Shown here: piece after piece, positions 3,237 to 48,220 of the stretch | Layout: the number at the start of each line of letters is the position of its first letter | Position numbering within the stretch: the stretch's first letter is position 1 | Assembly (NCBI GenBank): GCA_027061805.1 | Contig: JAMOWA010000057.1 | Location: 1 to 64,000, forward strand | Direction: 5' to 3' | Source of the DNA: Thermoanaerobaculia bacterium | Lineage (GTDB): Bacteria > Acidobacteriota > Thermoanaerobaculia > Thermoanaerobaculales > Sulfomarinibacteraceae | DNA: 64,000 nt | Notes under the pieces: model-generated | The model's input: only the letters and a program-made list of their open reading frames with translations | Told to the model about the DNA's origin: nothing | Database searches by the model: none | Program-made: the position numbers and the translations under genes

Positions 3237-4679
3237 GTGCCGACGCATTCCGACCTTGTCGCGCTCGCTCCCGAGCTCATCCTGATCCTCGCCGCCGGCG
3301 TGCTCCTGCTGGTGGAGGCCTTCCTGCCCAGGATCCGGCACGCGGCCTCGGGCCTGGCGCTGGTCTCCGTGGCGGGTGCCGCCTGGGCACGCCTGGCCCT
3401 CCCCCTGCCAGGTGCGGTCTGGAGCGGCATGCTCCGCGTGGACCGCGTGACCGCCTTCGTGGATCTCTACATCCTCGTGGCGCTGTTCCTGTCCATCTGG
3501 ATGGCCGTGGGCTTCCTCAGGCGCAACGGGCTGGACCGGGCCGAGTTCCACGCCCTCCTGCTGCTGGCCGCCACCGGCGCCATGGTCATGGCCGCCTCGG
3601 TGAACCTGCTGACCATCTTCCTGGGCCTGGAGCTGCTCTCCATGCCGCTGTACGTCCTCAACGCCTACCTCCGGCGGGTGGACGTGAGCCTGGAAGCGGG
3701 CCTCAAGTACTTCGTTGTCGGTGCATTCGCCTCGGGATTCCTGGCCTACGGTGCCGCGCTGCTCTACGGTGTCGCGGGCAGCACCGACCTGGCCACGCTG
3801 GCCCAGTCCGTGGTCCAGGAGGGGCGGATGACGCCCCTGCTGGCCGTTGGCCTGGCCATGTTCTCCGGCGGGCTGCTCTTCAAGCTGGCTCTCTTCCCCT
3901 TCCACGGGTGGGCGCCCGACGTGTACCAGGGCTCCCCCACCCCGGTGACGGCCTTCCTCTCGGCGGTTCCCAAGGGCGCGGCCCTGGTGGTGCTGCTCCG
4001 CCTCGTGATCTCCATGGACCTCCTGCACCTGACGAACAGGTGGCTGTGGGCCGGGGCCCTCGTGGCCGTGGCCTCCCAGTTCCTGGGGAACATCGTGGCC
4101 ATCGTCCAGCGGGACATCAAGCGGATGCTCGGGTACTCGGGCATCGCCCACATGGGCTACGCCATGGTGGGTGTCATCGTCGGGGGAACCGAGGGTGCGG
4201 GTGCGGTCCTGGTCTACCTTGCGGCCTACACCTTCATGAACATGGGCGCCTTCGCGGTCATCGCGCTGCTGTCCGAGAGCGAGCGGGAGCCCCACCTCAT
4301 CGGCGACCTCGCCGGCCAGGGGTGGCGCCGGCCCATCCCCGCCCTGGCGCTGACCGTCTGCATGTTCTCCCTGGCCGGAATTCCTCCTTTCGTCGGGTTC
4401 ACCGGCAAGTTCCTGGTCTTCAAGTCCGCCGTGGACGCGGGTCTCGTGTGGCTGGCCGTGGTCGGCGTGCTGAACTCGCTGATCTCCGCCTTCTACTACC
4501 TCCGGGTGGTCTACACCCTCTACATGCGGCCCCTCCCCAGGCGTGAACCGGCGTTTCCCGCCGGATTCTCCATCGGTGCCGCGGCGGCCACCGCCGCCGT
4601 CGCCGTGGTCCTGGCCGGGATCTTCCCGGCGCCCCTGATCCGGGCCGCCGAGGCCGCGGCACAGCTCTTCCTGGGGTGA
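3237..4679 (+). CDS. nuoN: NADH-quinone oxidoreductase subunit N
   Basis: Third antiporter-like subunit of complex I, 480 residues. The start is a GTG at 3237 behind a strong GAGGAGGA site that overlaps the end of nuoM. The conserved blocks FPFHGWAPDVYQGSPTPVTA and QRDIKRMLGYSGIAHMGY are present, as is the multi-helix membrane pattern. It is the last nuo gene here; rex follows after 4 bases, so the two are probably co-transcribed. Confidence 0.96.
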   Translation: MPTHSDLVALAPELILILAAGVLLLVEAFLPRIRHAASGLALVSVAGAAWARLALPLPGAVWSGMLRVDRVTAFVDLYILVALFLSIWMAVGFLRRNGLDRAEFHALLLLAATGAMVMAASVNLLTIFLGLELLSMPLYVLNAYLRRVDVSLEAGLKYFVVGAFASGFLAYGAALLYGVAGSTDLATLAQSVVQEGRMTPLLAVGLAMFSGGLLFKLALFPFHGWAPDVYQGSPTPVTAFLSAVPKGAALVVLLRLVISMDLLHLTNRWLWAGALVAVASQFLGNIVAIVQRDIKRMLGYSGIAHMGYAMVGVIVGGTEGAGAVLVYLAAYTFMNMGAFAVIALLSESEREPHLIGDLAGQGWRRPIPALALTVCMFSLAGIPPFVGFTGKFLVFKSAVDAGLVWLAVVGVLNSLISAFYYLRVVYTLYMRPLPRREPAFPAGFSIGAAAATAAVAVVLAGIFPAPLIRAAEAAAQLFLG

Positions 4680-4683
4680 CACG

Positions 4684-5349
4684 ATGGTGAGTCTCAAGCG
4701 GCGTTTCGGCGTGTCGGACATCTCGGAGCTCACGGTGGCCCGCCTGTCCATCTACCTCCGCTGCATGGAGGAGCTCGAGAGACTGGGCGTGGAGACGGTG
4801 TCCAGCCAGGAGATGGCGAAGCGCTTCCATCTCAACTCGGCGCAGATCAGGAAGGACCTGGCGTACTTCGGCGAGTTCGGCGTCCGCGGTGTCGGGTACA
4901 ACGTCACCGAGCTGAAACAGTATCTCATCGAGATCCTCGGGCTCTCCAGGGAGCGCCGGATCATCATCGTGGGTGCCGGGAACCTGGGGACGGCCCTGTG
5001 CCACTACTCCAGGTTCACCGGGGAGAGCTTCCTGGTGGTGGGCATCCTTGACGATGATCCGGGCAGGATCGGGGAGTCGACGCCGGGCGGCCTCCTGGTG
5101 GAGGATGCCAGCCGGCTCGGCGAGATCGTGCGCCAGCGGGAGGGGGAGATCGGCGTGATCACCACCCCGGCCGAACGGGCCCAGCAGGTCTGCGACCAGA
5201 TGGTCCAGGCTCACCTCAGGGCCATCCTGAACTTCGCTCCCGTCCAGCTCAACGTTCCGAAGGGGGTGCTGCTGCGGACGGTCGATCTCCGGGTGCACCT
5301 GGAGGAGCTCTCGTTCTACCTGGCCCACGGGATTCCCGACGATGGATGA
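4684..5349 (+). CDS. rex: Redox-sensing transcriptional repressor Rex
   Basis: DNA-binding repressor that senses the NADH/NAD+ ratio and controls respiratory and fermentative genes. The 221-residue protein has the Rex layout: an N-terminal winged helix with SSQEMAKRFHLNSAQIRKDL and the FGEFGVRGVGY joint, then a Rossmann domain with IIIVGAGNLGTALCHY (a GxGxxG-type NAD-binding loop) and the C-terminal helix that swaps between monomers. It starts 4 bases after nuoN, so the NADH sensor sits in the operon of the NADH-oxidising complex. No canonical Rex operator was found by eye in the window. Confidence 0.96.
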   Translation: MVSLKRRFGVSDISELTVARLSIYLRCMEELERLGVETVSSQEMAKRFHLNSAQIRKDLAYFGEFGVRGVGYNVTELKQYLIEILGLSRERRIIIVGAGNLGTALCHYSRFTGESFLVVGILDDDPGRIGESTPGGLLVEDASRLGEIVRQREGEIGVITTPAERAQQVCDQMVQAHLRAILNFAPVQLNVPKGVLLRTVDLRVHLEELSFYLAHGIPDDG

Positions 5350-5407
5350 GCATGGCCCGGAATGCAGTCACAGGTCCGTGGAGGGTGGCACCTCCGGCGG
5401 AATCCGC

Positions 5408-5413
5408 TAGAGT
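5408..5413 (+). promoter_or_regulatory. Probable -10 element (TAGAGT) for the kinase gene
   Basis: TAGAGT ends 6 bases before the ATG at 5420, and there is no Shine-Dalgarno sequence in between. This would place the transcription start at or next to the start codon (leaderless mRNA). No convincing -35 hexamer is seen. Confidence 0.5.
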
Positions 5414-5419
5414 AGAGAC

Positions 5420-7132
5420 ATGACGGATGCCCCGGAGCGCATCGGCAAGTACGAGGTGGTCGCCAAGATCGCCACGGGTGGCTTTGGTGTCATCTACAAG
5501 GGCTGGGATCCGTACATCAAGCGGACCGTGGCCATCAAGCTGTGCGCCACGCCAGACACCGAGGTGCGCCAGCGCTTCTTCCGCGAGGCCCAGTTCGTGG
5601 GCAACCTGGTCCATCCCAACATCACGCTGGTCTTCGACTTCGGTATCGAGAACGAGGTTCCGTACCTGGTCCAGGAGTTCCTGTCGGGCTATGACCTGGA
5701 TCAGCTCCTCCGGGGAGGCGTCCTGGACGGCAACGTCCGGGCGATCATCTCGATCCTCCTCCAGGTCTGCGAGGGGCTCGAGTTCGCCCACTCGCGGGGC
5801 ATCGTCCACCGTGACATCAAGCCGTCCAACATCCGCGTTCTGGAGGACGGCACCGTCAAGATCATGGACTTTGGCATCGCCAAGTCGCTGGAGGCCGGCA
5901 CCAAGCTCACGCAGACCGGAATCGCCCTGGGCACCGCGGGCTACCTGGCCCCCGAGCAGATCCAGGGACTGACCATCGATGCCAGGACGGACATCTTCTC
6001 CCTCGGCATCGTGGCCTACGAGATGATCACCGGCAAGCGACCCTTCGAGGGGAAGTCCCTCTCGAACGTCCTGTACAACATCCTCAACCTCGACCCGCCG
6101 CCGGTCCGCCAGGTGGTGGGATGGTGTCCGGAGGAGCTGGAGGCCATCGTCCGGCGGTGCATGGCCAAGGATCCCGATGCCCGTTACCAGAGCGCACGCC
6201 AGCTGGCGGACGCGCTCCGGCATGCGGCCTCCACCATGCCGGCGGCATCGGACTCCCCCCTTGGCGAGGAGGAGACCACCTCCATCCTCCGCGAGGTGGT
6301 GACCCGCATGGAGGAGTCCGGCCGGGTGGACACCGAACCCTCGACCAGGAGAATCCCCTCCAGCCAGGAAATGGCCACGCACGAGCCCTCCCCCCCGACC
6401 ACCGTGGAACGGCCCATCGAGCACACCTCGGTCCTGGAGGAGCTCGAGGAATCTGCCGGGCGGACGAGTCCCGCACTGAAGGTCTTCTTCGCCCTGCTCC
6501 TCCTCCTCGTGGTCGCGGGAGGAGCACTCTACTTCTCGCCGGAGATCCAGCACGCGATCTTCGGGGAGGCGGGGGCGCCCTGGATTCCCACGCCCACCCC
6601 CACCCCGACACCCGAGCCGACGGCCACGCCGACCCCCACCGTCACCCCGACGGCAACCCCGACCCCGGAAGCGAGTTCCACGCCCACTCCGGCGCCGCCA
6701 CCACCGGTGAAGGCCCGGCTCGTGGTGGATCCGCCGGCCAGCGTTGCCATCGATGGGAAGCCCCTGGGTACCAGCAGGATCCAGAGCCAGGTGGTCTCCC
6801 TGACTCCCGGCCGCCACCGCTTCACCGTCAGCCTCCCCGGTGTCCCCCCCAGGACCATCGAGAAGATGATCGGACCGGAAACGAAGGTGGTCTCCCTGTC
6901 CCTGGACATTGGCCAGCTCACCGTGGTCTACGACGAGGGTGCCCCTCCGGGCGGCGTGGCGTACCTGGACGGAGAGACGCTCGGCAAGCTCCCGCTGATC
7001 AAGGTCACCGTTCCCGCGGGCAAGCACCACCTGACGGTCACCTGGCCCGGGCACGATCCCTTCCACACGGTGATCGACGTTCCCCGTCTCCCCACCCCCC
7101 CGAGGATCCTTGCCGTCGCGCCGCCGAAGTGA
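5420..7132 (+). CDS. Membrane-anchored Ser/Thr protein kinase with two PEGA domains
   Basis: Eukaryotic-type signalling kinase of 570 residues. The N-terminal kinase domain (about 10-275) shows the glycine loop ATGGFGVIYKG, the VAIK lysine, the HRDIKPSN catalytic loop, the DFG metal motif and an APEQ activation-segment end, so it should be active. A single membrane helix (about 355-375) is followed by a long Thr/Pro-rich linker and two PEGA-type beta modules (about 435-500 and 500-565), which usually bind envelope or polysaccharide ligands on the outer face. A TPR protein gene follows on the same strand. Its substrates cannot be read from the sequence. Confidence 0.93.
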   Translation: MTDAPERIGKYEVVAKIATGGFGVIYKGWDPYIKRTVAIKLCATPDTEVRQRFFREAQFVGNLVHPNITLVFDFGIENEVPYLVQEFLSGYDLDQLLRGGVLDGNVRAIISILLQVCEGLEFAHSRGIVHRDIKPSNIRVLEDGTVKIMDFGIAKSLEAGTKLTQTGIALGTAGYLAPEQIQGLTIDARTDIFSLGIVAYEMITGKRPFEGKSLSNVLYNILNLDPPPVRQVVGWCPEELEAIVRRCMAKDPDARYQSARQLADALRHAASTMPAASDSPLGEEETTSILREVVTRMEESGRVDTEPSTRRIPSSQEMATHEPSPPTTVERPIEHTSVLEELEESAGRTSPALKVFFALLLLLVVAGGALYFSPEIQHAIFGEAGAPWIPTPTPTPTPEPTATPTPTVTPTATPTPEASSTPTPAPPPPVKARLVVDPPASVAIDGKPLGTSRIQSQVVSLTPGRHRFTVSLPGVPPRTIEKMIGPETKVVSLSLDIGQLTVVYDEGAPPGGVAYLDGETLGKLPLIKVTVPAGKHHLTVTWPGHDPFHTVIDVPRLPTPPRILAVAPPK

Positions 7133-7147
7133 CCCGGGTCCTGCCAC

Positions 7148-7182: not shown

Positions 7183-8844
7183 ATGAAACGAAGGATCGTG
7201 ACCATCGTGTTGGCGATGTCGGCCGGGCTGGTCCTGGCGCCCGGCGCCGCGGCGCAGGAACCCACGCCCAGCGAGCAGGCCGCAGTCAAGGCATACCGTG
7301 AGGGTGCCTTCTCCCGGGCGGTGACCCTCTACACGAAGGCACTCTCGGAGACCACGGACTCCCGGCACCGGGCGCAGCTCCATGTGAGGATCGCCTGGAC
7401 GCTCTTCGCCCTGGGCAGGGAGAACGAGGTGCCAACGCACCTCCGTGCCGCTCTTCTCGAGGACCCCGACCTCGAGCTGGTTCCCGACTACTACACCCAG
7501 GAGTTCCTCGACCTCTTCCACAGGGTCAAGAACGAGCCGCCCCGGCGTCCTGGAGGGACAGGAGCGCCCTCCGGCACCGACCTGGAGGCGACCATCGCCT
7601 CCATCCAGGGCCATCTGGCCTCCGGCGAGGACCTCGAGGGCGCACTTGCCGACCTCGACCGCCTCCTGGTGACGAACCCCTCCGATGGCAGGCTCCTCCC
7701 CCTCAAGGTGGCAATCCTCAAGAAGCTGGGTCGCACCGAGGAGGCCTCCCGTGCGGAACAGACGCTGCTGGCCGCCTCGGGCGGTGCCTCCGGTCAGCAG
7801 CTGCTGGAGGCCGGTGCCTCGGTTCCCGAGCTGATCCTCCGGGCCAACCGGCTCCTGGACGAGGGCGACGTGGAAACGAGTCTCCAGCTTCTCCGTACGG
7901 CGGTGTCCCGGCAGCCCAGCAACGTGGCCGCGCTGGAGCTCCTGGCGGAGGCTGCCACCCGCGCCGGCACATGGGACGAGGCCGAGTTCGCCCTGAAGAG
8001 CGCCCTGTCGTACCAGAGGGACAACCTGGAGCTGGAGCTCCGCCTGGGCGAGGTGTACCTGGCCATGGGTGACAACTCGGCTGCCCGCGACGTCTTCCGG
8101 GCCCTGACGGAGAAGGAGCCCCACTCGGACCGGGCCTGGGCGGCTCTCGGACTGCTGGACGCCCGGCTGGGCCGGACCGACCGGGCCATGGAGGAGCTGG
8201 GCAAGGCCATCCAGGAGAACCCCCTGCTCCCCGAGGTCCAGCTGGCCTACGGCGAGCTCATGCTCATCCACGGGAACCCCGACGAGGCCCTCAAGGCCCT
8301 GCGATCGGCATCGAACCTCCTCCACGACGACCCCCAGGTGGAGGCCCGCCTGGGCCAGGCGCTCCTCGCCCGCGGTGATGTCCAGGCCGCCCTGGAGCCA
8401 CTGCGCACGGCCATCGCCGCCGGCTTCGCGCCCCCGGACGTGCAGCGGTCGTTCGTCCTGGTCCTCATCGAGAACAACCTGCTGGCCGAGGCCGAGAGGA
8501 CGCTTGAGAGCGCGAACCTCGGGCCCAGCCAGGGCGGTGACCTTCTCAGGGGACTAATCCTGCTCCGCCGTGGAGAACCCGGGACGGCGCTCGGGCTCCT
8601 CCGCCAGGAGGCGAAGCGGCATCCCAACGATCCCCGGGTGCTCAACCTGATCGGCGTGGCCCTCTACAGGGACCGCAGGTTCGCCGAGGCCGTCCCGGTG
8701 CTGGAGAGGGCCGTGGAGCTCGACCCGGCGACGCCCACGCTGAAGGAGAACCTCCGGCTGGCCCGTGCCGCGGCCGATGCCGAGGCCCTGCGCGAGGACA
8801 CCATTCCGGTCCAGGCCGTGCCCACCGCCCTGAGCGGAAGCTGA
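7183..8844 (+). CDS. Exported tetratricopeptide-repeat protein
   Basis: 553-residue protein with a signal peptide (basic start MKRR, hydrophobic core, AAAQ end near residue 25). It is followed by at least ten helical TPR-like repeats; the clearest run from about residue 190 to the C-terminus, with phrases such as AWAALGLLDARLGRTDRAMEE and LNLIGVALYRDRRFAEAVPV. TPR arrays are protein-binding scaffolds; no catalytic domain is visible. It lies 50 bases after the PEGA kinase on the same strand, so the two may work together at the envelope, which is inference from position. Confidence 0.85.
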   Translation: MKRRIVTIVLAMSAGLVLAPGAAAQEPTPSEQAAVKAYREGAFSRAVTLYTKALSETTDSRHRAQLHVRIAWTLFALGRENEVPTHLRAALLEDPDLELVPDYYTQEFLDLFHRVKNEPPRRPGGTGAPSGTDLEATIASIQGHLASGEDLEGALADLDRLLVTNPSDGRLLPLKVAILKKLGRTEEASRAEQTLLAASGGASGQQLLEAGASVPELILRANRLLDEGDVETSLQLLRTAVSRQPSNVAALELLAEAATRAGTWDEAEFALKSALSYQRDNLELELRLGEVYLAMGDNSAARDVFRALTEKEPHSDRAWAALGLLDARLGRTDRAMEELGKAIQENPLLPEVQLAYGELMLIHGNPDEALKALRSASNLLHDDPQVEARLGQALLARGDVQAALEPLRTAIAAGFAPPDVQRSFVLVLIENNLLAEAERTLESANLGPSQGGDLLRGLILLRRGEPGTALGLLRQEAKRHPNDPRVLNLIGVALYRDRRFAEAVPVLERAVELDPATPTLKENLRLARAAADAEALREDTIPVQAVPTALSGS

Positions 8845-25677: not shown

Positions 25678-27069
25678 TCAGGCGCCCGCAGCGGCCATGG
25701 GGAAGGCCGGTGCCACGGGTCCCAGCGGGCACGATGCCTGCGGCCCCAGCGGACACGCACTCTCAGGGCCCAGCGGGCACGACGCCTGTGGACCCAGCGG
25801 ACACGCGCTCTCGGGCCCCAGCGGACACGACGCCTGCGGCCCCAACGGACACGCGCTCTCCGGCCCCAGCGGGCACGACGCCTGCGGCCCCAGCGGACAC
25901 GCGCTCTCGGGCCCCAGCGGGCACGACGCCTGCGGCCCCAGCGGGCACGCGCTCTCCGGTCCCAGCGGGCACGACGCCCGCGGACCCAGCGGGCACGCGC
26001 TCTCCGGCCCCAGCGGGCAACTGGCGGACGGGATGTTCATTCCCTTCGGAAAACGGGGGCTCCCCGCCACCTCCGCAGCCACACGGCAGGGCATCCCGGA
26101 GCCGGTCCACCGGTTCCAGCGATCGGTCTCCACGGACAGGACCCCATCGGGACGGAGCTCACCCACGTGGTTTCCCGGAAGCTCGAGTCCCACCGCGCAC
26201 TTGTGGAGCGCCCCGTCGGGACCGATCATGATGGAGTTGGACCGCCCCGCGTGGCACTGCAGCCCTCCGGGGCGGTTCTCCCGCGACCAGACCACCGTGG
26301 CCAGACCCGCACGGGAGAGGGCCTCCATGAGGCGGATACCGAAGAGCCTCGCCTCCCGGGCGTTGCACTGCGGGCCGGATCCGCCGGGGTAGGAGATGGG
26401 ACGACCGTAGAACTCGAACCTGGGGTCACCGGCGAACTGTCCCGCCAGCTCCGGGACCCACTGGAGGATCGCCTCCATGTTGTGGCAGTCGTAGCCGAGG
26501 CGGACCACCACGCGGAAGTCCGCCGTGCTGCGTTGCATCATGGTCAGTGCCGACCAGATCTTCCGGAAGCTCCCCTCGCCCCCGGCCGTGACACGGCGCC
26601 GGTCGTGCTCGCTCTCGGGGCCATCCACGGTGATCTGGTAGTCGCGGCAGCCCCATTCCGTCAGCTTGCGGAACCGCTCCTGCGTGAGCAGGGTCCCGTT
26701 GGTGGTCATGGACATGGTCAGGCGGGTCCCGGTGGACTCCGCCAGCTCCACAGCCCGCGTGGCGATGGACTCGATCACGTGCCACGCCGCCAGGGGCTCC
26801 CCGCCGTACCAGTCCAGGTGGAGCCGTTCCAGCTCCCGCTCGCCGACCAGCCGCTCGAGGAGCCGCTGCACTCCCTTCTGGACCTCGGAGGTCATCCTCC
26901 TCGGGGTGTGTCCCTGGTAGCAGTAGACGCACCGCAGGTTGCAGGCCTCGGTGGGCAGGATGACAACGTTGGCCACGCCCGACCAGGGGTCCGCGGACCC
27001 CGTGCCACCGCTCCCCAGCATGATGTTCCCTCGTGATTCGACCCGGATCTGATGAATGCTCTCACGCAT
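25678..27069 (-). CDS. Radical SAM/SPASM-type enzyme with a C-terminal CPLGP repeat tail
   Basis: 463 residues. The radical SAM core is complete: CNLRCVYC (Cys43, Cys47, Cys50) for the [4Fe-4S] cluster that binds SAM, YGGEPL (89-94), TTNGTLL and ITVDGPESEHDRRR. A SPASM-like half motif follows (Cys272, Gly286, Cys291, spaced CX13GX4C). The expected second half of SPASM, CX2CX5CX3C, is missing. Instead residues 351-451 are 13 copies of an eight-residue unit, alternating ESACPLGP and QASCPLGP (one RAS variant), then a short tail. Relatives modify peptides or sulfatases. The repeat could hold extra Fe-S ligands or be a fused peptide substrate; both are speculation. No separate precursor gene was seen nearby. 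Confidence 0.85.
   Translation of the reverse strand: MRESIHQIRVESRGNIMLGSGGTGSADPWSGVANVVILPTEACNLRCVYCYQGHTPRRMTSEVQKGVQRLLERLVGERELERLHLDWYGGEPLAAWHVIESIATRAVELAESTGTRLTMSMTTNGTLLTQERFRKLTEWGCRDYQITVDGPESEHDRRRVTAGGEGSFRKIWSALTMMQRSTADFRVVVRLGYDCHNMEAILQWVPELAGQFAGDPRFEFYGRPISYPGGSGPQCNAREARLFGIRLMEALSRAGLATVVWSRENRPGGLQCHAGRSNSIMIGPDGALHKCAVGLELPGNHVGELRPDGVLSVETDRWNRWTGSGMPCRVAAEVAGSPRFPKGMNIPSASCPLGPESACPLGPRASCPLGPESACPLGPQASCPLGPESACPLGPQASCPLGPESACPLGPQASCPLGPESACPLGPQASCPLGPESACPLGPQASCPLGPVAPAFPMAAAGA
25717..26019 (-). repeat. 24-bp tandem repeat array (13 units) inside the radical SAM gene
   Basis: A 24-base period, or 48 bases for the alternating ES/QA pair, encodes 13 CPLGP units. 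Copies differ mainly at silent or near-silent positions, and the two unit types alternate strictly, suggesting growth by duplication of a 48-base block with selection to keep the peptide. One arginine variant is at the N-terminal third unit. Confidence 0.95.
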
Positions 27070-33947: not shown

Positions 33948-34236
33948 GGGCGTGCCCGGCCGTCGGGGAGCGTGGGAGCATGGGAGAGGGGGCGGCAGGG
34001 GTGCACGGGAGAATCCGTCACGGCCACGGGCAGGGACGGGGTCACGGACAGGGACGGGGGCGGCATCGCGCCCGGGTGAAGGCGCCACATGATCCCGGGC
34101 CCTCATTCGTTTCACGTTTCACCTTTCACGTTTCACGAACGGGCGGGCGGGCGGGCTTCACTCTTTACTCTTCACCTCCCCACCCCCGAATGCCGTACAC
34201 TGTCCCCGCGCCGGCCCACCGGCTTCGGAGGTTCCC
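33948..34236 (+). other. Low-complexity intergenic stretch
   Basis: No gene seen. Bases about 34017-34062 are a short GGGACGGGGTCACGGACA-type array with the same six-base rhythm as the arrays at 45.1-46.9 kb. Around 34108-34138 TTTCACGTTTCAC is repeated, and a GGGC run (34141-34156) follows. A -10-like TACACT occurs at 34196-34201, about 35 bases before the next gene. Confidence 0.6.
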
Positions 34237-43623: not shown

Positions 43624-45126
43624 ATGGAGATCTTCGCCTCGCTCACACCCGCCGCCGCACCCGGCGGCCCCCTGGACGCTCTCGCCCACCCCCCGGCCGG
43701 AGCCTCGGTGGCCGAGTTCCGGGCCGACCTCTTCCCCGGAACCGATCCCGCCGCGGCGGTGGCGGCCAGCCCCCTCCCGCTGCTCTTCACCCTCCGTTCC
43801 CGGGCCGAGGGCGGTTCGGGTCCCGACGACCCGGAGGAGCGGAGGACGATCCTCCGCAACGCATGGGAGGCGGGTTGTGCCCTGCTGGACCTCGAGGCCG
43901 GGCGGGACCTCCACCTGATCGGCGAGCTGGGACTCGATCCCGAGCGCGCGGTCCTCTCCTGGCACGACGTCCGGGAAACGCCCCCCGACCTGGAGAGCAG
44001 GGTGGAGCACCTCATGGCCGCGCCGGCGCGCTGGATCAAGGTGGTGCCCACGGCGGTCTCGCTGGCGGACCTCGAGCGCCTGCTGCGACTCCACCCACGC
44101 TTCAACACCGGCCGGCCGGGCCGGCGCAGGCTCCTGACCTTCGCCATGGGGACCGTCGGGGTTCCCAGCCGCTACCTGGCCCCCCTCCTCGGCCCGCCCG
44201 TGGCCTTCGCCGCCTGGCGCCCCGGAGCCGCGGCCGCCCCGGGCCAGCTCACCATCGGGGATCTCGAGGCGGTGGTGGGCCACCTGGAGGGTCCGCCGGC
44301 GAGACTCCTGGGCGTGGTGGGCGGCAACGTGAGCGGAAGCCTCAGCCCCCGCCTCCACGGGGTGGCCTGTCGCGCCCTGGGCCTTCCATGGGCGCTCCTT
44401 CCGGTGAGCGTTCCCGACGCCGGGGAGCTCCACATGCTGTTCCGCCCCGCCGGAGAGACCCTCTTCGACGGGCTCGGCCTTGCCGCCGCAGGCTGGGCGG
44501 TCACCAGCCCCCACAAGGCCCGGGCCGCCGAGGCCGCCACCCTCGCGGCCCCCAGGGTGAAGCGGTCCCGGTCCGCCAACACCCTCGTCCTCCGTCCCGG
44601 GCAGATCCTCGCGGACACCACCGACGCCGACGGCGTGGTGGGAGCACTCAGGGCCGCGGGGGTGGATCCCTCGGGCCGGCCGGCCCTGGTCCAGGGCACG
44701 GGCGGCGCGGGCAGGGCGGCGGCCGTGGGACTCGACCTCGCGGGCGCCGCCGTCAGCCTCCGGGGGCGCGATCCCCGGACCACGCGGCGCGTGGCCGCTG
44801 AGCTCGGTGTCGCCTGGCTCTCGCCGGAGGATCCCGTCCCGGAGGGGTCGATCCTGGTGAATGCCACGCCCCTGGGAAGCCGTCCGGACGATCCCCTCCC
44901 CTTCCGTCCCGCCGATCTCGACGCCGCCTCCGCCGTCGTGGACATGGTCTACGGGCCCGGCGCCGCGGCACTGGCCGAGGCGGCATCCTCCGCCGGCGTG
45001 ACCCACATCGACGGGCTCCAGATGTTGCTCCACCAGGGAATCGCCCAGATCGCCGCCTTCACCGGCCGGGTGCCACCCCGGGAAGCCCTGCAGGAGGCGC
45101 TGGGCCTGGAGGACGGTGGGAGGTGA
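43624..45126 (+). CDS. aroDE: Bifunctional 3-dehydroquinate dehydratase / shikimate dehydrogenase
   Basis: Two successive steps of the shikimate pathway on one 500-residue chain. Residues 1-205 are a type I dehydroquinase: EFRADLF, His114 in LSWHDV and the Schiff-base Lys139 in WIKVVPTAVS. Residues about 225-495 are shikimate dehydrogenase: NVSGSLSPRLHGVACRALGL for substrate, Lys in TSPHKARAAEAA, the NADP loop GTGGAGRAAAV, NATPLGS and the late HIDGLQMLLHQGIAQ. The fusion resembles the plant DHD-SDH and some bacterial enzymes. No other aro gene is nearby. Confidence 0.95.
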   Translation: MEIFASLTPAAAPGGPLDALAHPPAGASVAEFRADLFPGTDPAAAVAASPLPLLFTLRSRAEGGSGPDDPEERRTILRNAWEAGCALLDLEAGRDLHLIGELGLDPERAVLSWHDVRETPPDLESRVEHLMAAPARWIKVVPTAVSLADLERLLRLHPRFNTGRPGRRRLLTFAMGTVGVPSRYLAPLLGPPVAFAAWRPGAAAAPGQLTIGDLEAVVGHLEGPPARLLGVVGGNVSGSLSPRLHGVACRALGLPWALLPVSVPDAGELHMLFRPAGETLFDGLGLAAAGWAVTSPHKARAAEAATLAAPRVKRSRSANTLVLRPGQILADTTDADGVVGALRAAGVDPSGRPALVQGTGGAGRAAAVGLDLAGAAVSLRGRDPRTTRRVAAELGVAWLSPEDPVPEGSILVNATPLGSRPDDPLPFRPADLDAASAVVDMVYGPGAAALAEAASSAGVTHIDGLQMLLHQGIAQIAAFTGRVPPREALQEALGLEDGGR

Positions 45127-45146: not shown

Positions 45147-45470
45147 ACGGTCAGGGTCACGGGCACGGGCAGGGTCACGGTCCCGTCCGTGCCCATGACC
45201 ATGTTCCTGTTCCTGTTCTCGTCCATGATCGTGCCCCTGTCCCCGTTCTCGTCCCCGTCCACGACCATGACCCTGTCCCCGTCCTCGTCCCTGTCCATGA
45301 CCATGTCCCTGTCCATGCTCTACGGCGCCCTCCGGTCCTCCACCGGAACAGGGTCAGGTCATGGCCAGGGTCAGGGTCGGGGTCAGGGTCACGGCCAGGA
45401 TCACGGGCACGGACAGTGTCGGGGGCACGGTCACGATCACGGTCAGGAGCGCTCGGACATGGTCACCACC
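45147..45470. repeat. Hexanucleotide-periodic array R1 with a central hairpin
   Basis: About 320 bases of six-base rhythm. The left half is pyrimidine-rich on this strand (units such as GTCCCC, GTCCAT) and the right half purine-rich (GGGTCA, GGGTCG), so the halves are roughly complementary. They meet at TCCGGT-CCTCC-ACCGGA (45331-45347), a perfect 6-bp stem with a 5-base loop. No stop codons fall in several frames, which creates long spurious reading frames. It sits between aroDE and the first four-helix-bundle gene. Confidence 0.85.
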
Positions 45471-45612
45471 GGGTCGTTCGTAGGGGTACGTAGCCTCCGG
45501 GCGTCCCGGCGTCAAGGGCGGGCCTGCGGTCGCGGCGCAGACGCCGCGACCCTTGACTCCGGGACGCCCGGAGGCTGTTGGGGGTTGCATGAACGACCCG
45601 GAGGTGACCATG
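45458..45612. repeat. Nested palindrome, copy 1, containing the start of the first four-helix-bundle gene
   Basis: Outer arms of 24 bases (45458-45481 and 45589-45612) match in 22 positions. Inner arms of 27 bases (45492-45518 and 45550-45576) match in 26. An innermost 8-bp hairpin (TCGCGGCG, CAGA, CGCCGCGA; 45530-45549) closes the top. The right outer arm contains GGAGGTGACCATG, the ribosome-binding site and start codon of the next gene, so folded mRNA would hide them. Confidence 0.85.
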
Positions 45613-45960
45613 ACCCTGATGCGCTCCCAGACCGTCGTCCTCGACCTGGCCCTCGAGGCCGCGTCCATCGCCCTGAAGCTGGCCCAGCGGGTTCCGGTGA
45701 CGCTCAGACCCGTGGCCGACCAGCTGGTCCGCTCGGCTTCGTCCGTCCCCTCGAACCTGGCCGAGGGGCTGGGACGTCCGGGCCGGGCCGGAGCCAACCA
45801 CTGGCGCATCGCCTACGGCTCCGCCCGGGAGGCCGATGTCCAGCTCAGGCTGCTCGCCGGAGCGGGCGCCATCGATGCCCGGCAGGCCGCCATGGCACTC
45901 GACCTCCTCGACCAGGTCCGCGCCATCGCCTGGCGGCACCTCCACCCGCCAACCCGGTGA
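45610..45960 (+). CDS. Four-helix-bundle protein (S23/IVS family), copy 1
   Basis: 116 residues predicted to form four amphipathic helices. Family features: VVLDLALEAASIALKL, then QLVRSASSVPSNLAEGLGRP, the hallmark loop of 23S-rRNA-intervening-sequence proteins, and ANHWRIAYGSAREADVQLRL. Relatives include S23 proteins and the Avd subunit of diversity-generating retroelements, but no reverse transcriptase or rRNA is here. The ATG at 45610 is chosen for the GGAGGTGACC directly before it, conserved in both copies; an ATG at 45589 is possible. The function is unknown. Confidence 0.85.
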   Translation: MTLMRSQTVVLDLALEAASIALKLAQRVPVTLRPVADQLVRSASSVPSNLAEGLGRPGRAGANHWRIAYGSAREADVQLRLLAGAGAIDARQAAMALDLLDQVRAIAWRHLHPPTR

Positions 45961-45970
45961 GGGAGCGATG

Positions 45971-46257
45971 CCGTCACGGTCACGGACATGGCCACGGACA
46001 CGGGCACGGTCAGGGCCAGGGTCAAGGTCAGGGTCACGGTCCCGTCCGTGCCCATGACCATGTTCCTGTTCTCGTCCATGATCGTGCCCCTGTCCCCGTC
46101 CTCGTCCCTGTCCATGACCATGTCCCTGTCCATGCTCTACGGCGCCCTCCGGTCCTCCACCGGAACAGGGTCAGGTCACGGCCAGGGTCGGGGTCACGAA
46201 CACGGACACTGTCAGGGTCGGGGTCGGGGTCGGGAGCGCACGGACATGGTCACCACC
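45971..46257. repeat. Hexanucleotide-periodic array R2 with a central hairpin
   Basis: Second copy of the array, a little shorter than R1, with the same pyrimidine-rich then purine-rich halves and the same central TCCGGT-CCTCC-ACCGGA hairpin (46148-46164). The copies differ by gain and loss of whole six-base units, as expected of slippage. It separates the two four-helix-bundle genes. Confidence 0.85.
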
Positions 46258-46391
46258 GGGTCGTTCGTAGGGGTACGTAGCCTCCGGGCGTCCCGGCGTC
46301 AAGGGCGGGCCTGCGGTCGCTTCGCGACCCTGTGACTCCGGGACGCCCGGAGGCTTCTTCAAGAGCCATGAACGACCCGGAGGTGACCATG
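46245..46391. repeat. Nested palindrome, copy 2, containing the start of the second four-helix-bundle gene
   Basis: Outer arms 46245-46268 and 46368-46391 and inner left arm 46279-46305 are the same as in copy 1. The inner right arm (46328-46355) has one mismatch and one extra base. The innermost hairpin has a different sequence (GGTCGC, TTC, GCGACC; 46315-46329) yet still pairs perfectly. The right outer arm again ends in the gene's own GGAGGTGACCATG. Confidence 0.85.
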
Positions 46392-46739
46392 ACCCACACG
46401 CGCTCCCAGACCGTCGTCCTCGACCTGGCCCTCGAGGCCGCGTCCATCGCCCTGAAGCTGACCCAGCGGGTTCCGGTGACGCTCAGACCCGTGGCCGACC
46501 AGCTGGTCCGCTCGGCCTCCTCCGTCCCCTCGAACCTGGCCGAGGGGCTGGGACGTCCGGGCCGGGCCGGAGCCAACCACTGGCGCATCGCCTACGGCTC
46601 CGCCAGGGAGGCCGACGTCCAGCTCAGGCTCCTTGCCGGAGCGGGCGCCATCGATACCCGCCAGGCCGCCACCGCCCTCGACCTCCTCGACCAGGTCCGC
46701 GCCATCGCCTGGCGGCACCTCCACCCACCCACCCGGTGA
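46389..46739 (+). CDS. Four-helix-bundle protein (S23/IVS family), copy 2
   Basis: 116 residues differing from copy 1 at only five positions (two near the N-terminus and three Ala/Met to Thr changes), so the duplication is recent or homogenised. The NLAEGLGRP loop and all helices are kept and the frame is intact, which suggests the protein is still under selection. The ATG at 46389 has the same ribosome-binding site within the palindrome arm. It is followed by a third partial array. Confidence 0.85.
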   Translation: MTHTRSQTVVLDLALEAASIALKLTQRVPVTLRPVADQLVRSASSVPSNLAEGLGRPGRAGANHWRIAYGSAREADVQLRLLAGAGAIDTRQAATALDLLDQVRAIAWRHLHPPTR

Positions 46740-46750
46740 GGAAGCGATGC

Positions 46751-46900
46751 CGTCACGGACACGGACATGGTCAGGGCCAGGGTCAAGGTCAGGGTCAGGG
46801 CCACGGTCCCGTCCGTGCCCATGACCATGTTCCTGTTCCTGTTCTCGTCCATGATCGTGCCCCTGTCCCCGTCCACGACCATGACCCTGTCCCCCTGTCC
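46751..46900. repeat. Hexanucleotide-periodic array R3, partial
   Basis: Third array, beginning with the same GTCACGGACACGGACATGG phrase as R2 but stopping after the pyrimidine-rich half; the central hairpin and purine-rich half are missing. It ends about 70 bases before the trpS stop. The order is therefore R-gene-R-gene-R(partial). Confidence 0.8.
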
Positions 46901-46967: not shown

Positions 46968-47933
46968 CTACCGGATGCCCACCAGGCTCCGGATGCGATC
47001 CATGAGGGGAACCACCACCTCTCGGGCGCGTCCGGCGCCATCGGCGAGCACGCGCTCCACCTCGTCCGGGTCCTGCGACAGCTCCTCGAAGCGGCGCCGG
47101 GCCTCCCCGAAGCTGTCCAGGTACCACCCGAAGAGCCTCTTCTTCATCTCGCCGTAGCCCACGCCCCCCTCGTCGAAGGCCCGTTCCACCCACTCGCGCT
47201 CCCCCTCGGGAGCGAAGAGACGCAGCAGCTGGTACAGCGAGCTGCCCTCCCGGGGCTTGGGCTCCTCCACCGGCGTGGAGTCGGTGACGATGGACATGAT
47301 GCGCTTGCGGATGGCCTTCTCCGGACCGAAGATGTCGATGGTGTTGCCGTAGGACTTGCTCATCTTCCTGCCGTCCACGCCGGGCACCACCGCCACCTCG
47401 TCCAGGATGATGGGCTCGGGAAGCGTGAACACCTCCTCGCCGTAGCGGGCGTGGAAGGACAGCGCGATGTCCCTGGTGACCTCCAGGTGCTGCTTCTGGT
47501 CCTTGCCCACCGGGACGCGGTCGGAGCTCACGATGAGGATGTCCGCGGCCATGAGCACGGGGTAGGCGAAGAGGCCGTGGCTGGGGACCAGCCCCTGCGC
47601 CACCTTGTCCTTGTAGGAGTGGCACCTCTGGAGGAGCCCCATGGAGGTGACCGTGGAGAGGATCCAGGTGAGCTCCGGGATCTCCACGATGTCCGACTGC
47701 CGGTAGAGCACGCTGCGCTCGGGGTCCAGGCCGAGGGCGAGGAACGCGGTGGCCAGCTCCCGCGTGTTCCTCCGGAGCTCCTCCCCGTCGTGGACGGTGG
47801 TCAGGGCATGGAGGTCCGCCAGGAAGTAGTAGCACTCGTTGTCGCCCTGCAGCTCGATGAACTGCCGGATGGCCCCGAAGTAGTTGCCGATGTGCAGCAC
47901 GCCCGAGGGCTGGACGCCAGACAGGATCCTCAT
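46968..47933 (-). CDS. trpS: Tryptophanyl-tRNA synthetase
   Basis: Class I synthetase of 321 residues. The opening RILSGVQPSGVLHIGNYFGA contains the HIGH-type motif, and GRKMSKSYGN is the KMSKS loop; PVLMAADILIVSSDRVPVGK and DQKQHLEVTRDIA are family blocks. The ATG at 47933 is preceded by AGGAGGTGAC, and a TATCAT -10-like element lies further up at 47953-47958. The gene ends beside the repeat arrays. Confidence 0.96.
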   Translation of the reverse strand: MRILSGVQPSGVLHIGNYFGAIRQFIELQGDNECYYFLADLHALTTVHDGEELRRNTRELATAFLALGLDPERSVLYRQSDIVEIPELTWILSTVTSMGLLQRCHSYKDKVAQGLVPSHGLFAYPVLMAADILIVSSDRVPVGKDQKQHLEVTRDIALSFHARYGEEVFTLPEPIILDEVAVVPGVDGRKMSKSYGNTIDIFGPEKAIRKRIMSIVTDSTPVEEPKPREGSSLYQLLRLFAPEGEREWVERAFDEGGVGYGEMKKRLFGWYLDSFGEARRRFEELSQDPDEVERVLADGAGRAREVVVPLMDRIRSLVGIR

Positions 47934-47958
47934 GTCACCTCCTCGGCGGGGGATGATA

Positions 47959-48194
47959 GCACCTCCCATCCGCACACCCGCCGTCACGGCAGGGTGGCCT
48001 CCCCGGCCCCCCTGCCGGTCGAGAACAACGGAAACCGGCCGGGGAGGAGGAACGGGATCATGGGCAGGAACTGGGGCACGGACGCGGTCGCGATCGCGGA
48101 CACCGATACAATCACGGGCGCCGGCTCCCCCGGTCGATCCTGCCCCGCTCTGCCGTCCGATCCCGGTGCCTCCCCCTTTCCGTGGAAACCAGAC
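47959..48194 (+). other. Intergenic stretch with a short hexamer-like array
   Basis: No gene seen between trpS and the ferredoxin gene. Bases about 48070-48120 carry a degenerate GGACGC/GGTCGC/GATCGC/GGACAC rhythm like the arrays at 45-47 kb. Confidence 0.5.
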
Positions 48195-48220
48195 GGGCCG
48201 GTGCGTCACCGCACCGGCCC
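48195..48220 (-). terminator. Terminator-like hairpin after the ferredoxin gene
   Basis: A perfect 11-bp stem (GGGCCGGTGCG and its complement) with a four-base loop just beyond the ferredoxin stop. On the minus strand it is followed by GTCTGGTTTCC, a poor T-tract. Confidence 0.6.

Follow-up and report, generated by a model that had tools for sequence, protein, structure and literature searches.

Palindrome-headed S23-type genes in a Thermoanaerobaculia genome resemble a family of non-autonomous transposons

Two array-hairpin-gene units between aroE and trpS

In the window, by which we mean the whole 64,000-nucleotide stretch of DNA that was analysed, the aroE and trpS genes are separated by two copies of one arrangement, in which a tandem array leads into a nested palindrome and an ORF of 116 codons, and by a partial array after them (Table 1). 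Direct reading of the sequence confirmed this order, as given in a preliminary description of the locus, together with its count of 5 differing positions between the two 116-aa products (96% identity). The start of each ORF was taken as the second ATG, which has GGAGGT in front of it. The gene pair shows 95.4% nucleotide identity with a dS of about 0.12, and the inner palindromes are unequal in length (85 vs 77 nt), which argues that the two copies are not trivial assembly duplicates. A 31-nt non-repeat spacer, TGCTCTACGGCGCCCTCCGGTCCTCCACCGG, is common to both units and points to duplication of the whole unit in tandem. The doubling in place looks like tandem duplication of one whole unit rather than two insertions. 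No match to an Rfam family was found in the window.

Table 1. Coordinates of the two units and their neighbours in the window.
Feature	Position	Strand	Remarks
aroE (shikimate dehydrogenase fusion gene), left neighbour	43624..45126	+	Name from sequence recognition; conserved flank in the comparison of element-free sites
5' array, copy 1	45147..45447 (about)	+	GGTCAC/GGTCAG-type hexamers; inverted half at ~45180-45315; 31-nt non-repeat spacer at 45316-45346
Outer stem 5' arm, copy 1	45455..45479	+	Arms 92% complementary; covariance model R1 match 45459-45612
Hairpin, copy 1	45459-45612	+	Covariance model R1
Inner palindrome, copy 1	45492..45576	+	85 nt; arms 96% complementary; core GTCAAGGG...CCCTTGAC
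Outer stem 3' arm, copy 1	45591..45615	+	Holds Shine-Dalgarno GGAGGT (45600-45605) and start codon (45610)
S23/Avd-fold ORF, copy 1	45610..45960	+	116 aa + stop; PF05635 49.1 bits, TIGR02436 50.2 bits
5' array, copy 2	45973..46236 (about)	+	Hexamers, inverted half and 31-nt spacer as in copy 1, spacer at 46133-46163
Outer stem 5' arm, copy 2	46242..46266	+	Inverted-repeat analysis
Hairpin, copy 2	46246-46391	+	Encloses inner palindrome 46279-46355
Inner palindrome, copy 2	46279..46355	+	77 nt
Outer stem 3' arm, copy 2	46370..46394	+	Holds Shine-Dalgarno and start codon (46389)
S23/Avd-fold ORF, copy 2	46389..46739	+	116 aa + stop; family profiles
Partial third array	46754..46900	+	Without hairpin, without gene
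trpS (tryptophanyl-tRNA synthetase), right neighbour	46968..48209	-	Name from sequence recognition; convergent with aroE; likely start near 47933

Both ORF products score above the curated cut-offs of the family models (49-52 bits vs 33.8 for PF05635; 50-52 vs 24 for TIGR02436), and the element proteins score far below canonical S23 genes. For the copy 1 product AlphaFold2 predicted a confident four-helix bundle (pLDDT 93.3) whose best solved structural matches are the S23 proteins 2gsc and 2rld, with Avd (4dwl, 8ub7) next at a TM of about 0.72-0.76 and a Z of about 13.6-15.0. By profile match and predicted fold, the element protein is a member of the S23 / 23S_rRNA_IVP family (PF05635, TIGR02436). 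Avd forms pentamers. The S23 protein of Xanthomonas is a homopentamer, and a paper on the Coxiella example describes S23 proteins as having no known function (PMC4990558). Within each of four subfamilies of the element gene dN/dS is 0.15-0.22, and by this measure the S23-type ORFs are under purifying selection. Named relatives of the protein come from Acidobacteriota MAGs, one of which is labelled Thermoanaerobaculales.

The element hairpin is a nested palindrome of 145-155 nt lying directly 5' of the S23-type gene. A covariance model (R1) was built from 29 hairpins of the source genome and its relatives; the two window hairpins, which the model includes, matched it with E-values of 6e-29 and 7e-29, and with predicted fold energies of -117 and -103 kcal/mol they stand far above chance. 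In the 29-hairpin alignment, at least one pair-preserving double change was seen at 25 of the 42 predicted pairs, in both the outer and the inner stems. The outer 3' arm spans the ribosome-binding site and start codon and is matched by changes in the 5' arm (GGTCACCTCC/GGAGGTGACC; GGTTTCCTCC/GGAGGAAACC); folded as RNA, the hairpin would bury the start site of the gene. To distinguish an RNA stem from a DNA palindrome, G.U pairs, which are tolerated in RNA only, were counted against A.C mismatches. An early count over 78 distinct hairpins (41 vs 46) was read as favoring a DNA-only stem, a reading that was dropped when clustering at 95, 85 and 75% identity gave ratios of 36:29 (62 representatives), 22:16 and 11:4. 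As G.U is not clearly above A.C, these counts lend weak support to selection at the RNA level and favor neither an RNA-only nor a DNA-only stem.

A scan for sigma-70 promoters and terminators found none. When 23 canonical S23 genes from the phylum were examined, none had a palindrome of the element type upstream, on which ground the palindrome was rejected as a general S23 feature for the phylum.

Copies, deletion derivatives and element-free sites

The source genome (G000) is a draft of 3.1 Mb in 68 contigs, 97% complete. Protein searches returned 25 matches in it, some of them partial at contig ends: 24 are of the element type, and one, on contig C56, is a canonical S23 gene (39% identity) without an upstream palindrome. 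Nearly all complete element genes have the hairpin just 5' of them. The 54 R1 matches are mostly both strands of the same palindromes and so represent about 27-30 hairpins, several of the extra ones lying so close to a contig end that the gene is cut off; because the element repeat breaks draft assemblies, all of these copy counts are approximate. The unit seen at these loci is a nested palindrome with a gene of 115-120 codons; it extends to the stop codon or slightly beyond, and an array usually lies on its 5' side. In a tree of 45 proteins the 21 copies from the source genome fell into four subfamily clades, which suggests several bursts of lineage-specific amplification.

The hairpin was found in 16 of 30 sampled genomes, the source genome included, and nearly all of these belong to the host's family. 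Only 4 of 199 sampled genomes of the phylum contained it, two from the host's family and two distant ones, in which nested palindromes with a GTCAAGG/CCTTGAC core were seen with no S23 gene detected alongside. Composite units are common to different contigs of the source genome (L005 and L007 over 964 bp, L006 and L007 over 764 bp), these three loci having the array, hairpin, gene and a further palindrome in common. This second palindrome (TGTCATCCCGAGCG...CGGGATGACAG), which may belong to the CGTC/TGTC type, follows the ORF by ~10-160 bp. In G010, a disrupted reading frame is common to several element copies, and a different repeat shows up as nested insertions. A further observation in that genome is a multi-copy repeat other than the element (CGGGCTCGACATTGTGCTCAG...CACAATGTCCAGCCGGGC), which lies within or beside S23 remnants (L107-L112).

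Three dispersed loci of the source genome (L053-L055; C65, C26, C59) consist of a hairpin and an internally deleted gene in which the start is fused straight to the 3' end (MTHALIPHPPGEE or similar). The flanks of the derivative on C26 are unlike those on C59, and the one on C65 is cut off at the contig end just 5' of the array. A different internal deletion was found in G001 (L069), and 3'-truncated genes stand behind hairpins in G006, G009 and G015. Internal-deletion derivatives that keep both ends (L053-L055, L069) are a feature shared with non-autonomous transposons and MITEs. The element differs from MITEs in that one of its ends is a long hairpin, and no terminal inverted repeats were recognised at the two unit ends.

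TrpS was found in 26 of the 30 sampled genomes. In ten relatives from the host's family (G001, G003, G004, G005, G007, G008, G009, G013, G015 and G016) aroE adjoins trpS in convergent orientation and the element is absent, the gap between aligned ends being 2-734 bp as against 1842 bp in the source genome; these element-free sites are all in other genera and were matched at the aligned gene ends. With sites compared at this resolution, and with other repeats obscuring the ends of the element, no target-site duplication could be made out. Within genus g3, orthology was one-sided only (G002 L051 vs G010 L105; G014 L115 vs G010 L110). In the closest relative, G004, the spacer (L074) holds an unrelated repeated sequence, which suggests that this intergenic site is insertion-prone. 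Dispersed copies, together with absence from the matching site in ten relatives, indicate that the unit behaves like a jumping element. The preliminary description had looked to further copies in this and related genomes, and to presence or absence at orthologous sites, as support for mobility, and both were found; a single locus with conserved neighbours, which it had set against mobility, is contradicted.

Of 64 copies, 57 have a tandem repeat within the 200 bp that adjoin the hairpin on its 5' side (mean cover 0.44), compared with 16% of distant control windows (cover 0.03), which included genic DNA, so that part of the excess may reflect the intergenic location of the elements; the 3' side of the element is intermediate. 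From locus to locus and genome to genome the array units vary, with hexamers, 12- to 13-mers and other units. Hexamer arrays occur throughout the source genome, at places lacking the element too (286 pattern matches, against 4 in a reversed control), and exclusivity of the arrays to the element was rejected for this genome. Since they also stand alone, the arrays may be substrate, by-product or carrier. Elsewhere in the window, a tandem array with a 48-bp unit (25721-26019; 6.2 copies, 92% matches) is unlike the hexamer arrays, and a solo hexamer-type array and a CGTTTCA heptamer array lie at 34025-34059 and 34108-34137. The heptamer recurs 3' of many elements (L003, L009, L012, L013, L017).

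Known systems and competing explanations

S23 genes of the 'four helix bundle' type, without assigned function, are found in many bacterial genomes, and in the literature consulted the best-described context of the family is the 23S rRNA intervening sequence (IVS) with an S23 ORF, for example in Coxiella and Leptospira, described as a selfish element (PMC4990558). An IVS sits in an rRNA gene and is cut out of the precursor by RNase III. The present element resembles the IVS in protein family and fold, in self-complementary sequence and in sporadic distribution. It differs in that the IVS ends enclose the ORF, whereas both arms of the element's palindrome lie 5' of the ORF body, and also in its about 25-30 copies per genome, its arrays and its deletion derivatives. 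Neither the window nor any of 20 element loci gave an rRNA match above the Rfam gathering threshold, and the window neighbours are protein genes. Being outside rRNA, with an ORF that is not within the stem, the element is no rRNA IVS. Stand-alone 'four helix bundle protein' genes (TIGR02436/PF05635) have the family in common with it, and the 23 canonical ones lack the palindrome. The element protein has the four-helix-bundle fold of Avd (4dwl, 8ub7) from diversity-generating retroelements (DGRs), which also have a reverse transcriptase and template and variable repeats; a reverse transcriptase is absent from the source genome, which argues that the element is no DGR there. A direct tie to rRNA or to retroelements, both named in the preliminary description, was not supported.

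REP/RAYT systems and CGTC repeats are likewise dispersed extragenic palindromes, some of them GTAG-tagged and some without a known mover (PMC3733652). Published REPs are 20-40 bp long (PMC3733652), in contrast to the nested hairpin of about 150 nt (inner palindrome 77-85 nt) coupled here to a conserved gene, and no palindrome-flanked Y1 transposase was found in the source genome; by size and flanking, the element is not a REP/RAYT unit. A type III toxin-antitoxin system, which has a similar layout of array, hairpin and gene, was considered; against it, the units of the array are freely variable and the protein does not resemble ToxN. In viral contigs the palindrome core was matched 22 times, and two scrambled cores 0 and 5 times; none of the core-bearing viral contigs encodes the element protein, and a phage origin was discarded. 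A search of the open-access literature returned no paper that connects S23 genes to mobile units with palindromes.

The element itself contains no gene for a transposase, recombinase or reverse transcriptase, and the 'self-amplifying' character once suggested for it is not supported, as it encodes no catalytic gene. Among the 30 genomes, none of the RVT_1, Y1 and IS110 families tracks the hairpin. Reverse transcriptase (PF00078) and the IS110 transposase of bridge-RNA elements (PF01548) both number 0 in G000, G002, G006 and G010, all of which are multi-copy for the element. Reverse transcriptase, Y1 transposase and IS110 were rejected as the mover because their distributions do not follow that of the hairpin. 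We read these loci as an undescribed family of palindromic S23 elements resembling a non-autonomous transposon, and we infer transposition from sequence comparison. The copies, empty sites and deletion derivatives support the earlier suggestion of a stand-alone, palindrome-bearing S23 unit that may be mobile, and it is likely that these units form a dispersed mobile family.

The strongest competing explanation is that recombination between arrays spread the units; homologous recombination or gene conversion would copy array-embedded cassettes with no transposition and the S23 gene would be a self-regulated host gene. Consistent with this are the hexamer arrays found genome-wide with and without the element, the array and spacer that subfamily 1 units have in common between loci, and the tandem duplication in the window. 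However, subfamily 2 and other genomes have other arrays (13-mers, GGCAGC and others) with the edge of homology at the hairpin arm, the aroE-trpS spacers of relatives appear by eye to lack the hexamer array, and the deletion derivatives retain both element ends, which makes this explanation rather unlikely. Pure cis-regulation, by which the hairpin would be an RNA leader hiding the start site and the copies ordinary duplicated genes with no mobility, would account for an outer 3' arm that spans the ribosome-binding site and start codon and for the matching 5' arm changes; we consider it quite improbable in view of the multi-locus dispersal, the empty sites, the deletion derivatives and the G.U counts given above.

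The hairpins might instead be REP/RAYT-like miniature elements that depend on a Y1 (IS200/IS605-type) transposase for their movement, with the S23 gene as passenger or accessory. The source genome has two Y1 matches, GTAG or a similar tetranucleotide stands at the foot of the inner palindrome, before it, in many but not all copies, and there is a published precedent for CGTC-type palindromes that lack a dedicated transposase (PMC3733652). The stretches around both Y1 matches contain no confident R1 match, G006 (22 R1 matches, both strands counted) and G009 are without Y1 whereas several hairpin-free genomes have it, and the small size of published REPs also speaks against such a reading, which we find improbable. 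Copying of the hairpin RNA by a reverse transcriptase in trans, with the Avd-like protein bound to it, would fit the match to the Avd fold and is very improbable given that PF00078 is absent from the 97% complete source genome and from the multi-copy carriers G010, G006 and G002. An assembly artefact, the duplication being absent from the living cell, could be suspected in a draft genome where many contigs end in the element repeat; as many bases distinguish the two window copies, and several independent genomes have copies in the interior of contigs, we regard it as hardly credible.

Proposed mechanism and wider occurrence

Under the reading as a mobile palindromic S23 family, a single copy would have inserted in the aroE-trpS spacer, followed by tandem duplication of the whole unit, probably via the flanking arrays. 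A host enzyme or some other enzyme may act in trans to move or copy the units, recognising the palindrome as their end. The S23-like protein, which is pentameric in a solved relative, may bind the element hairpin, much as Avd acts in the DGR ribonucleoprotein, and once bound it could recruit the mover, control its own translation, or both; control of translation is proposed because the outer 3' arm spans the ribosome-binding site and start codon. That the protein acts on its own hairpin is suggested by analogy and is plausible, if slightly doubtful. The full account, comprising a mobile palindromic S23 family, movement in trans, a hairpin-binding protein and a tandem duplication in the window, is the best explanation we can offer and somewhat probable as a whole.

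Tentatively, the element might represent a new class of mobile element whose sole protein is a hairpin binder of the S23/Avd fold, whose mobile end is the palindrome and whose mover is a host enzyme or the protein's own activity, with the GTCAAGGG/CCCTTGAC core as a wider signature. This core also occurs in phage or IS contigs and, without the gene alongside, in two nested palindromes from distant Acidobacteriota. If true, such a class would offer a mobile role for many orphan S23 genes. An S23 fold in a free-standing, palindrome-headed, multi-copy element makes S23 function directly testable, through hairpin binding and movement.

Palindromes with a GTCAAGG(G)...(C)CCTTGAC core and no S23 gene detected were seen at L135 (G198), L136 (G102) and the viral loci L175, L177, L182, L189 and L190, and by eye some core palindromes lie near ORFs resembling IS110 or IS30 transposases. 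On contig C56 of the source genome (L208), a single ORF at 7613-8494 on the minus strand, read from the sequence, apparently fuses a PIN-type nuclease domain with a four-helix bundle of canonical S23 type, the S23 half lying under the PF05635 match. Its neighbours look like nucleotide-sugar and polysaccharide genes, and a UDP-sugar dehydrogenase-like ORF of 919 aa at 4377-7136, also on the minus strand, contains an apparent intein (CLAGQEW...VHN/C).
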